Assembly: GCA_025056565.1 (NCBI GenBank)
Contig: JANWWA010000003.1
Location: 164,263-228,262, forward strand
Length of the DNA stretch: 64,000 nt
Origin: Chloroherpetonaceae bacterium
GTDB taxonomy: Bacteria > Bacteroidota > Chlorobiia > Chlorobiales > Thermochlorobacteraceae
Direction of reading: 5' to 3'
Below the pieces are notes generated by a model. That model ran no database searches. It was not told the origin of the DNA and saw only the letters and a program-made list of their open reading frames with translations. Within the stretch, counting starts at the first letter, position 1, and every line of letters starts with the position of its first letter. The translations under genes and the position numbers were made by a program. This document shows, piece after piece, positions 52,699 to 57,069 of this stretch.

Positions 52699-54060
52699 TC
52701 AGGCTGATTCATTTTCTACCTCGACAGGGGTAGCAAGTGGCACACTCTTGGGAGAGTAGGTTGGTTCAGCAGATTCTACCCATGCTGCCAGCGTAATATC
52801 GCCTGTTACATTAACAACGGTGCGGCTCATATCTAAAATTCTATCTACGCCCAAGATAACGCCAATCCCTTCGACAGGCACACCAACTTGCTGCAAGACC
52901 AGCACCACCAACGGCAGCGAGCCGCCGGGCACACCGGCAGTGCCAACCCCAGCTAACACTGCAAGCATCACGACCAGCACTTGCTGTCCCAGACTAAGGT
53001 CAATCCCATAGAACTGAGCAAGAAAGAGCACTGTAATACCTTCATAGAGCGCTGTGCCATTTTGATTGGCGGTTGAGCCAATGGTAAGCACAAAGTTTGA
53101 AATGTCGCGATTGATACGCAGAGTCTCAACTGAGACACGTAGTGAAGTAGGCAGTGTGGCATTAGATGAGCTGGTAGAGAAAGCCGTCAGCATCACTTCT
53201 ACGATGCCCTTGAAAAATTCAATCGGGTTACGTTTGGCGCCCAGCTTGAGGATAATTCCATAGGTTACAAACTGGTGGAACGCTAGCGCAAAGAGCACAA
53301 CAAAAACATACTTTGCTAAGACAGCAATGATTTGAAAGCCAAGCTGCGAAGTGGCGGTAAAAATCAGTGCCGCAACGCCGTAGGGGGCAAGCTGCATGGC
53401 AAGGTCAATGATTTTCATAACTGCATCATTAATGCCTTGCAGCACTTTGGTCAGCGGCTCAATGCGTTCAGGTGCGCACATTGTCATTGCAATGCCGAAA
53501 ATGAGCGCAAAGAACATAATTGCAATCAAGCCGCCACCACGATAGTTCGGGTCGAGAAAAAAGGTAACTTCTACAAAAGGATTGCGAGGAATGAAGTCCA
53601 AAAGCGTTTGCGAAAAGGATTTGCTTTCACTGGCGCTGGTCAGAATGCTGCTAACTGCCTGATTGTTTGAAAGCGTGCTCATCAGCAGCTTACGGCTTTC
53701 TTCTGAAAGACCGACGCCGGGCTGAATAAGATTGACCAGCACGATGCCAACCACAACCCCCAGTGCAGTAATCACTACGGTAAAGAGCAAAGTTTTAATG
53801 CCCACTCGTCCAATTTTCTTCACATCGCCTAAGTCCGCAACACCCAAGACTAATGCAGAAAAAATCAGCGGCACAATCACCATAAAAATGAGGCGCAAGA
53901 AAATCTGCCCGACTGGATAAGCAACTTCTTTGGCAATCCACCTAACGGTTTCATCATTTGGGAAAAAGAGATTCGCAATTAACCCAGCTAGCAATCCAAC
54001 TGCTAGCCCAATAAAGATTTTGGTGTGCAAAGCGAACTTTTTGGGTTTTGGTGTCTCCAT
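52699..54060 (-). CDS. Dicarboxylate/amino acid:cation symporter (DAACS family)
   Basis: 453 residues with the usual eight membrane helices plus two re-entrant hairpins. The signatures are TAFSTSSSNATLPTS (serine-rich hairpin 1), LTIGSTANQNGTALYEGITVLF (NMDGT-like motif of helix 7) and GGSLPLVVLVLQQVGVP (hairpin 2), then LGVDRILDMSRTVVNVTGD. GltP/DctA relatives take up glutamate, aspartate or C4-dicarboxylates with H+ or Na+. The ATG at 54060 is preferred; a GTG at 54126 adds a polar leader. It is divergent from the BchH-like gene. Confidence 0.92.
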   Translation of the reverse strand: METPKPKKFALHTKIFIGLAVGLLAGLIANLFFPNDETVRWIAKEVAYPVGQIFLRLIFMVIVPLIFSALVLGVADLGDVKKIGRVGIKTLLFTVVITALGVVVGIVLVNLIQPGVGLSEESRKLLMSTLSNNQAVSSILTSASESKSFSQTLLDFIPRNPFVEVTFFLDPNYRGGGLIAIMFFALIFGIAMTMCAPERIEPLTKVLQGINDAVMKIIDLAMQLAPYGVAALIFTATSQLGFQIIAVLAKYVFVVLFALAFHQFVTYGIILKLGAKRNPIEFFKGIVEVMLTAFSTSSSNATLPTSLRVSVETLRINRDISNFVLTIGSTANQNGTALYEGITVLFLAQFYGIDLSLGQQVLVVMLAVLAGVGTAGVPGGSLPLVVLVLQQVGVPVEGIGVILGVDRILDMSRTVVNVTGDITLAAWVESAEPTYSPKSVPLATPVEVENESA

Positions 54061-54227
54061 GTTCTCAGCAGCTTGCTTATGCGGTTTCTTACCGCTGTTT
54101 CGTGTTTGCTGAAAGAAATTGTGCACAAGAATTGGAGTATAACACTTTTGGGCAAAATGTTAGAGTGATAGAGGTGCAAAGCAGCCACAGCACTACTCTA
54201 GCAAAGCAGAGCTAAGGTTAGCGAGCG

Positions 54228-54256
54228 TTGCGCACACTATTCCATTCTTGTATCTT
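54228..54256 (+). promoter_or_regulatory. Promoter-like pair TTGCGC-N17-TATCTT
   Basis: A -35-like TTGCGC (54228-54233), a 17-bp spacer and a -10-like TATCTT (54251-54256) lie 54 bp before the BchH-like start. The TATCTTAC string also approaches TAnnTTTG. It is in the right place to express the gene on its own. Confidence 0.4.
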
Positions 54257-54310
54257 ACGCTATGCGCTGCAGCGCAAGCAGTTACAGAAACATTTACAAA
54301 GGAGTTGGCT

Positions 54311-55708
54311 ATGAACGACAATGCAGCAAAGCCGGTGCGCCCCCTTTCGCCAGAGGAACAAAAGCAACTGGCTCATATCGTGCACGAGGGCAAAGCACTG
54401 CTCTCCAAGCTACTAACCAATCAAGAAGAATTGCGTGCGCTCATCAACGGGCTAAATGGAGGTTATATTGCTCCACAATTCGGCGGCGATGTGATTCGTG
54501 ATGGGGCACGTGTGTTGCCAACAGGACGCAACATCCACGCAATGGATCCATGGCGAGTGCCTTCCGACCTTGCAATGAAGCGTGGGGAGATGATTGCACA
54601 AAAACTTTTAGATGCGCACTATCAAGAGTCGGGCAAGCTGCCTGAAACGGTTGCTCAAGTGCTATGGGGAATGGATACCATCAAGACCAAAGGAGAGCCA
54701 ATTGCAATAGCACTTGCCTTGATGGGCGCACGACCCGAAAAAGATGCACACGGCAAGATTTCTGCCTACAAGCTCATTCCACTGAGCGAACTGGGGCGAC
54801 CCCGCATTGATGTTTTGATGACTGCCTCAGGCATTTTTCGTGACACTTTCGCAATGCAGATTGACTTTTTAGATCGGCTTGTAAAAGATGCGGCGCAAGC
54901 AGATGAACCGCTCGAGATGAACTTTATCAAAAAGCATGTGCAAGAATTGATGTTAGAACGGCGCGTCAGTTTTGAGGAGGCAACGGCACGTGTATTCACC
55001 CAGCGCCCAGGAGACTATGGTAACTATGTCGATGATATGATTGAAAATAGCTCATGGCAAGAAGAGAGAGAGTTAGGCGAGATGTTTGTAAAGCGCAATG
55101 GTTATGCATATGGTGGCGCAAAGCAAGGCAAGCTCTGTGCAGCTGTGTTAGATGCACTGATGTCAAAGGTAGAGCGGATTTCTCAGGAAATTGATTCGGT
55201 GGAATACGGCATCACTGACCATCAGCATTACTTTGCTGAGTCAGGCGCACTGCGTCAAGCCGTGGCAAATCGGACCAATCGACAGGTGCAGGTCAGCTAC
55301 ATTGAGTCCTTCACAACAGAGACGACGGTGCGCAGCTTGGAAGCCACACTGCGAATGGAAGTGCGCACGAAACTGTTGAACCCGAAATGGTTTGAGACAA
55401 TGCTCAAAAACGAAGCCAGTGGCGCAGCAGAAATTTCCAGCCGATTTACTTACCTCTTGGGTTGGTCAGCAACTGCAAAAGCAGTAGACAAGTGGGTGTT
55501 TGATGAATCTGCCAAGACCTACTTGCTCGATGAGGCAATGCGCAACCGTCTGCTCAAGCTCAACCCAGCGGCTTTGAAGAATATGACAGGACGCTTGTTG
55601 GAAGCCGCTGGGCGAGGACTCTGGCAGGCTGACCCAGATATGCTCGAGAAACTGCGCGACCTTTACGCCGATTTGGAAGACCGACTGGAAGGCGCAGTCG
55701 TCTCTTAG
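54311..55708 (+). CDS. Stand-alone C-terminal part of magnesium-chelatase subunit H (BchH-like)
   Basis: 465 residues, corresponding to the last third of BchH/ChlH (about 1200-1300 residues in the intact protein). Conserved landmarks in order: LPTGRNIHAMDPWRVPS (70-86), VLWGMDTIKTKGE (117-129), IPLSELGRPRIDV and SGIFRD (to 178), ADEPLEMNFIKKH, SVEYGITDHQHYF, RTKLLNPKWFETM, GWSATAKAVDKW (384-395), LNPAALKNM. The match is closer to BchH than CobN. The gene begins cleanly with MNDNAAKPVR; AAAGGAG (54298-54304) sits six bases before the ATG. No N-terminal half is adjacent: both flanking genes are on the minus strand. So this is a separate gene, not a frameshifted copy within an intact bchH locus. 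Function by itself is unknown; porphyrin binding in BchH needs the full fold. Confidence 0.88.
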   Translation: MNDNAAKPVRPLSPEEQKQLAHIVHEGKALLSKLLTNQEELRALINGLNGGYIAPQFGGDVIRDGARVLPTGRNIHAMDPWRVPSDLAMKRGEMIAQKLLDAHYQESGKLPETVAQVLWGMDTIKTKGEPIAIALALMGARPEKDAHGKISAYKLIPLSELGRPRIDVLMTASGIFRDTFAMQIDFLDRLVKDAAQADEPLEMNFIKKHVQELMLERRVSFEEATARVFTQRPGDYGNYVDDMIENSSWQEERELGEMFVKRNGYAYGGAKQGKLCAAVLDALMSKVERISQEIDSVEYGITDHQHYFAESGALRQAVANRTNRQVQVSYIESFTTETTVRSLEATLRMEVRTKLLNPKWFETMLKNEASGAAEISSRFTYLLGWSATAKAVDKWVFDESAKTYLLDEAMRNRLLKLNPAALKNMTGRLLEAAGRGLWQADPDMLEKLRDLYADLEDRLEGAVVS

Positions 55709-55737: not shown

Positions 55738-57069
55738 TTATACGGCATCTGAAAGGCTGGTAAAGGTGAAATCACGCACACGAATAGGCGGAATAAGACT
55801 ATTGCCGATACGCTCGGGCTTGCCTATTGCGTCTAAGTTATTGAGCATAATAATCGGGCTTTCATTGAAGCGGAAGTTCTTAACGGGATACTTGATTTTG
55901 CCATTTTCAATGTAAAACGTCCCATCACGTGTGAGACCAGTAAAGAGTAATGTTTGAGGATCAACAGGGCGAATATACCAGAGACGCGTAACCAGAATAC
56001 CACGCTTGGTGTCTTTGATAAGGTCTTCAAGAGTCGCATTTGTGCCTTCCATAATGACGCCGCCGGGCGGTGGAACGGCTTTCTTACCTTGCTTTTCAGC
56101 CCAGTAGCGCGAGTAGAAGAGATTTTTCACGACACCTTTTTCAATCAGCATCATTTTTTCACGTGGGCGACCATCAGCTACAAAAGGTGCGGAAGGGATT
56201 TCAGGGTGCTGTGGGTCCGCATAAATCGTAACACGCTCATCGACAATTTGCTCGCCAATTTTGTTGCCACCGCCTTTCTTAGAAAAGAAACTCCGTCCTT
56301 CATCGGCTTGCCGCGCATCCATCGCAAAGAGCATACCACCTAAGAGACTGGCATCAACAGTGCTAACCAGCGCTGCAGGTTCGAGAATCACCGTATATTT
56401 GCCGGGCTCGAGAGCGCGGGGATTACGCGACATCAAAGCTTTGTCGATTGCAATTTTAGAAGCTTTGGCTGAATCAAACTTTCGCACATCGCTGTAAGAG
56501 CGCACAGCATAGCCAGACCCTGTGCCATCTTCGGTGCGCATCGTTACAGAAAAATCCATCGTGGTGTATTTGTAGTAAGCAAAAAGTCCGCGCCGATTCA
56601 TCAAAGCTTGGAAACCCGTTGTGTCGTTAAAAAAGCCGGCAGCCGTAACCTTTTTAGCGGCAGCTGGCACAATGCTGTCTTCGGCAACTTTTGCACGGAA
56701 CTCTGGCGTAATGTTCTCGGTAGATTCAAATGCGCCTTTGACCTCTAAGTAAGTTTGCGGCTCCAAAGAAGGCATGGTCTCGGGGTTATCTGGCGCTAAC
56801 TGAGCCAGCTCTTCTGAGCGACGCACACATGCCTCTAAGGAGGCATCATCAAATTCATTGATGCTGGCGGAGCCAACTTTCTTGCCAAAGCGAGATTGCA
56901 CAGTGAGCGTCAGCGTGTCTTGCAAGCCGCTGGTGGTGACGGTATTGCGCGCGTAGCGAATGTTGCCTTCTATGCTACCATTTAGCGTAGCATCAATGTC
57001 GTCCGCCTTCGAGAACGAGATGACTTTTTTGAGAAGCGCTTCAGCTTCGCTCTTAGATAGAATCGCCAT
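55738..57069 (-). CDS. TldE/PmbA-family metalloprotease-like protein
   Basis: 443 residues. The family pattern is seen in the N-terminal part (NIRYARNTVTTSGLQDTLTL, GKKVGSASINEFDDASLEA, RRSEELAQLAPDNPE) and the C-terminal part (IVDERVTIYADPQHPEIPSAP, GTNATLEDLIKDTKRGILV, NFRFNESPIIMLNNLDAIG). No HExxxH zinc site is present, which makes it the PmbA/TldE-like partner rather than the catalytic TldD. In E. coli the pair matures microcin and processes peptides. A tldD partner is not in the window. Confidence 0.85.
   Translation of the reverse strand: MAILSKSEAEALLKKVISFSKADDIDATLNGSIEGNIRYARNTVTTSGLQDTLTLTVQSRFGKKVGSASINEFDDASLEACVRRSEELAQLAPDNPETMPSLEPQTYLEVKGAFESTENITPEFRAKVAEDSIVPAAAKKVTAAGFFNDTTGFQALMNRRGLFAYYKYTTMDFSVTMRTEDGTGSGYAVRSYSDVRKFDSAKASKIAIDKALMSRNPRALEPGKYTVILEPAALVSTVDASLLGGMLFAMDARQADEGRSFFSKKGGGNKIGEQIVDERVTIYADPQHPEIPSAPFVADGRPREKMMLIEKGVVKNLFYSRYWAEKQGKKAVPPPGGVIMEGTNATLEDLIKDTKRGILVTRLWYIRPVDPQTLLFTGLTRDGTFYIENGKIKYPVKNFRFNESPIIMLNNLDAIGKPERIGNSLIPPIRVRDFTFTSLSDAV

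Follow-up and report, generated by a model that had tools for sequence, protein, structure and literature searches.

Magnesium chelatase inserts magnesium into the precursor of bacteriochlorophyll, and the porphyrin-binding H subunit is its largest component. Chlorobaculum tepidum has three H paralogues, BchH, BchS and BchT, which are proposed to serve different pigment pools. The naming of these paralogues used here follows PMC9316378. No structure of the whole magnesium chelatase complex exists (PMC13297055). In Synechocystis ChlH, residues H621, E660 and H1174 are essential, and E625 is strictly conserved and located at the end of a solvent channel (PMC13297055). No mention of a split bchH was found in the openly available papers searched, a set outside which the study of Liu et al. 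2012 on Thermochlorobacter falls.

The window analysed here is a stretch of 64,000 nucleotides from a Chloroherpetonaceae bacterium (GCA_025056565.1, contig JANWWA010000003.1). It carries a gene for the C-terminal part of an H subunit (BchH-C), and a second gene elsewhere in the genome encodes the N-terminal part (BchH-N). The pair resembles BchH/ChlH (TIGR02025; 4zhj and 6ysg) in that it matches the whole length, keeps the essential residues and has BchI and BchD as partners, but it differs in being made from two unlinked genes, with a break in the linker before approximately ChlH residue 904. It lies in the same large H clade as C. tepidum BchS (CT1295) and BchT (CT1955), whereas these two are full-length proteins and the pair falls outside the Chlorobi S/T clade. 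A piece nearly equal to BchH-C folds as a unit in the isolated C-terminal pieces of ChlH (the T_926 truncate 6ys9, and 5ewu) and of CobN (9fpc); those pieces are laboratory constructs, whereas BchH-C is a natural gene. The same superfamily fold is found in CobN cobaltochelatase and HmuS heme dechelatase (7c6o and 9d26), but the sampled CobN-like sequences lack a His at the ChlH 1174 position.

BchH-C is encoded on the forward strand at 54311–55708 as an uninterrupted frame of 465 amino acids, with its ATG at 54311 and its stop at 55706–55708. TIGR02025 (BchH) matches the protein with E=2.9e-193 and 644.7 bits over model positions 822–1271 of 1271 (about ChlH residues 904–1330), and PF02514 (CobN-Mg_chel) matches with E=3.5e-160 over profile positions 676–1089 of 1090. 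Homology is limited to the C-terminal 37% of BchH, and the preliminary description had likewise seen a match to the last part of the subunit only. In the two models it begins at about residue 15–21; the first 14 codons (54311–54352) form a leader without clear BchH homology, and the junction alignment places the breakpoint in the ancestral linker here. A Shine-Dalgarno sequence, AAAGGAG, was read directly at 54298–54304, 6 nt ahead of the ATG. An alternative in-frame TTG at 54248 would give a protein of 486 amino acids, and nothing speaks in its favour. The flanking frames are both on the reverse strand: a 475-amino-acid ORF upstream (52699–54126), which we take to be dicarboxylate-transporter-like by family resemblance, and an ORF downstream (55738–57069), presumably TldD/PmbA-like on the same ground. 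The ribosome-binding site, undamaged frame and opposite-strand neighbours described earlier are thus borne out. The plausible promoter also proposed there is not: it is indistinguishable from chance, and shuffled sequence contains promoter-like sites at a frequency not clearly lower than that around the gene. BchH-C is located in the interior of the 231-kb contig C3 (C3:218561–219904), and therefore no N-terminus was removed by an assembly break.

A lone N-terminal domain was sought across all 75 contigs of the genome (2.92 Mb, 100% complete). Three genes with PF02514 were found: contig C16 carries a full-length BchH, C3 carries BchH-C, and C12 carries a gene for the N-terminal part alone. The last, BchH-N (L002:988–3408), is intact, encodes 806 amino acids and has an ATG preceded by the Shine-Dalgarno sequence AAAAGGAG. 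It matches TIGR02025 at model positions 2–796 with 745.7 bits, and its stop follows no more than about 10 residues after the homology ends. The equivalog cut-off of this model is 829 bits for the full model in one protein, and each half alone scores below it. Jointly, the two proteins cover all 1271 positions except the linker, with a sum of about 1390 bits. Alignment with fused relatives revealed no missing conserved stretch, and the break lies inside a linker of variable length. Neither half reaches the CobN-model thresholds (375 against 1468 for BchH-C, 275 against 822 for BchH-N), which short length alone would also prevent, and for both the CobN scores are lower than the BchH scores. An assembly break was rejected as the cause of the short genes, since both genes lie inside long contigs.

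The active-site residues are distributed over the two proteins. After a 20-residue offset between PDB-chain and native ChlH numbering was applied, the named residues fell on the expected Glu and His. In the alignment, BchH-N carries His587, Glu591 and Glu626, equivalent to ChlH His621, Glu625 and Glu660, and BchH-C supplies His306 (codon 55226–55228, motif TDHQHYF), equivalent to His1174. A complete active-site set is impossible in either half alone. All four residues are conserved in each of the five pairs described below. At the ChlH 1174 position, where the pair has His, Arg is found in BchT-type proteins of C. tepidum (L128:3265–7152), Chlorobium and Chloroherpeton. In H proteins of Chloroflexia, Asn occupies this position in two sequences and Thr in one.

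The distribution of the two genes was followed in nine genomes of Thermochlorobacteraceae (G000–G008, with the window genome as G000 and GBChlB as G001). The window genome, G007 and G008 are congeneric with Candidatus Thermochlorobacter aerophilum. The N/C pair is present in five genomes of three genera (G000, G007, G008, G001 and G002), all of them drafts, and the breakpoint is in the identical linker position in all five. The fourth genus, with four genomes, has fused BchH only, of which G005 shows just a piece at a contig end. BchH-C is intact in all five split genomes, and so the same short gene, sought in relatives, was found in four of them without the decay that would have marked it as debris. 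BchH-N is frameshifted by indels at poly-A runs in the drafts G007 and G008; these are probably sequencing errors, although the N gene may be decaying there. In four genomes the two genes lie on separate contigs, and in G001 a distance of about 24 kb separates them. No conserved neighbours of the halves were seen across genera, and operon logic therefore lends no support to their connection. In the rest of the class, nearly all H proteins are full-length among the matches listed. A cross-phylum spread of the split was rejected, as the closest non-Chlorobi relatives (Roseilinea and Thermoflexales, Chloroflexota) are full-length, as is every H among the matches listed from 41 Chloroflexia genomes.

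A full-length H was not found in the drafts G001, G007 and G008 (100, 99 and 96% complete, respectively). One BchI, one BchD and one BchX above the cut-off are present in each of the nine family genomes, the window genome included, and the FMO protein is also present in all nine; it scores above the cut-off in every one of the five split genomes, and the draft G005 has only a fragment of it. A published description of GBChlB presents it as a photosynthetic member of the Chlorobi that is potentially aerobic and carries genes for making bacteriochlorophyll (PMC4161750). In G001, G007 and G008, which have the rest of the chelatase, no H candidate other than the split pair was therefore found, and because of this the two pieces very probably join. 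The best explanation, to which we give a probability of about 0.86, is a naturally split BchH in which two polypeptides assemble one chelatase H subunit with a shared active site. BchH-N and BchH-C, encoded by two unlinked genes, would fold separately and associate non-covalently in equal stoichiometry to rebuild the usual H subunit. BchH-N would contribute the N-terminal two thirds including His587, Glu591 and Glu626, and BchH-C the C-terminal body part including His306. The composite H would bind protoporphyrin IX, and the BchI–BchD ATPase would drive Mg insertion. The preliminary description had offered the C-half of a genuinely split chelatase as one of several possibilities, and the lone N-half in the genome, together with the pair in four relatives, three of them without a full-length H, strongly supports it. 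A chelatase regulator, which it also suggested, is unlikely, since three genomes have the remaining chelatase and no H was found in them other than the pair.

Trees built from the N part, the C part and both jointly recovered one split clade with SH-aLRT support of 97–100%, and in the careful tree its support was 100/100, in a sampling that left out Chloracidobacterium BchH. Within the family, the clade branches on the side of BchS/BchT. Membership in the Chlorobi BchS/BchT clade was rejected (AU p=2.6e-7), as was descent of the split pair from the fused gene that the family itself carries (AU p=6e-70), and a sister relation with the H of Chloroflexales was not rejected (AU p=0.13). The split pair is a third deep H lineage in the Chlorobi, separate from both BchH and BchS/BchT. 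The identities of both halves drop with genus distance as BchD does, and therefore the pair was probably inherited by the three genera from one common ancestor.

Full-length BchH stands beside the split pair in G000 and G002, and so the pair is not the sole H there. In these two genomes, the split chelatase might serve a different pigment pool, a tentative refinement of the split-subunit explanation that we consider possible but rather unlikely. The position of the split clade outside the Chlorobi S/T clade is consistent with it, and so is the apparently genuine presence of the full-length gene of the window genome (L001, C16:38379–41651). Contamination as the source of this gene was considered and is not supported, because two of its neighbours are about 82–83% identical to orthologues from the same genus, which in G007 and G008 are located close to BchH-C. 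Against a separate pool stands the fact that in G001, G007 and G008 the pair, being the only H found, must serve all pools. The earlier idea of a duplicate kept for another tetrapyrrole task thus survives for G000 and G002 alone, and there as a two-part enzyme; elsewhere it fails. The C16 gene is 79–81% identical to the BchH of the fourth genus and is absent from the other two same-genus genomes; it was either gained by transfer or lost repeatedly in relatives. The full-length BchH of G002 (L007, C4:898333–901590) has an unusually long branch of about 0.6–1.0 in the trees, as if, next to the split pair, it had become relaxed or specialised.

Structure models were compared with the known proteins. 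The AlphaFold2 model of BchH-C has a mean pLDDT of 86.9, matches ChlH and is close to 6ys9 and 5ewu (rmsd 1.5–2.2 Å, TM 0.94–0.96 normalised to the target). The C piece therefore corresponds to a known autonomous unit. Such unaided folding, as in the solved C-terminal ChlH truncates, is also what would be required if BchH-C, a protein characterised by homology only, acted independently of BchH-N, whether by binding porphyrins, by regulating or by holding the following enzyme as a scaffold. This is very unlikely, given that an N-half with the shared breakpoint is present in all five genomes, that essential residues are kept in both halves and that no full-length H was found in three genomes. 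The isolated BchH-N model has a mean pLDDT of 81.1 and is poorly determined where the active-site motifs lie. Its global accuracy is low (TM 0.51–0.54 to ChlH), and therefore only its confidence profile was used. Invariant residues of BchH-N are enriched at pLDDT below 50 (12 of 46, against 56 of all 806 residues, p=2e-5), and a matching enrichment in the BchH-C model was not significant (p=0.095). The enrichment in the BchH-N model fits a site that needs a partner, and a shallow alignment could contribute to it.

Pairwise dN is 0.10–0.25 for BchH-C and 0.12–0.36 for BchH-N, with dS saturated or above 2, which shows purifying selection on both halves. The frameshifts of the N gene in two drafts would suit a non-functional relic, with pieces of a broken bchH merely persisting, but such selection with dS saturated, together with the retention of all catalytic residues, frames intact in three genera and the lack of any alternative H found in three phototroph genomes makes this highly improbable. 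Rejoining of the halves by trans-splicing or a split intein is the least credible reading, since one breakpoint is indeed common to five pairs, but BchH-N has its own stop and BchH-C its own ATG, Shine-Dalgarno sequence and short leader, and the ends of the two proteins leave no room for an intein half.

For a split H subunit, the natural break puts the essential E660 and H1174 on two chains and provides a ready-made tool. The halves can be expressed, labelled and mixed, so that porphyrin binding, BchD docking and domain movement become assignable to each half. Because the active site would be complete only when both H polypeptides meet, H assembly might also be a control point. A reversible assembly that controls bacteriochlorophyll synthesis, in a four-gene enzyme (BchH-N, BchH-C, I and D) that is the sole chelatase of aerobic hot-spring green bacteria, is a speculative and improbable extension.

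Other members of the pathway and superfamily were also surveyed. None of the nine Thermochlorobacteraceae genomes has a match to TIGR02021 (BchM, Mg-protoporphyrin methyltransferase) that exceeds the cut-off. When C. tepidum BchM (L128:11951–12649) was used as the query, eight family genomes, with G005 excluded, gave weak generic methyltransferase matches of at most 31 bits, and the same query, as a control, matched Chloroherpeton and G096 at 54–57% identity. BchM is also absent from the Roseilinea-type Chloroflexota G099 and G101. The methyltransferase step in genomes without BchM may be carried out by a different enzyme. An extra CobN-like large subunit, seen in some Chlorobiaceae and in Chloroherpeton (G028, G030 and G095), is lacking in the nine Thermochlorobacteraceae genomes. 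In a Methanomethylicota archaeon (L125/G102), PF02514 occurs as separate pieces (6–526, 557–662 and 676–1088) on two contigs; this may reflect contig ends, or else a CobN-like gene that is split or frameshifted.
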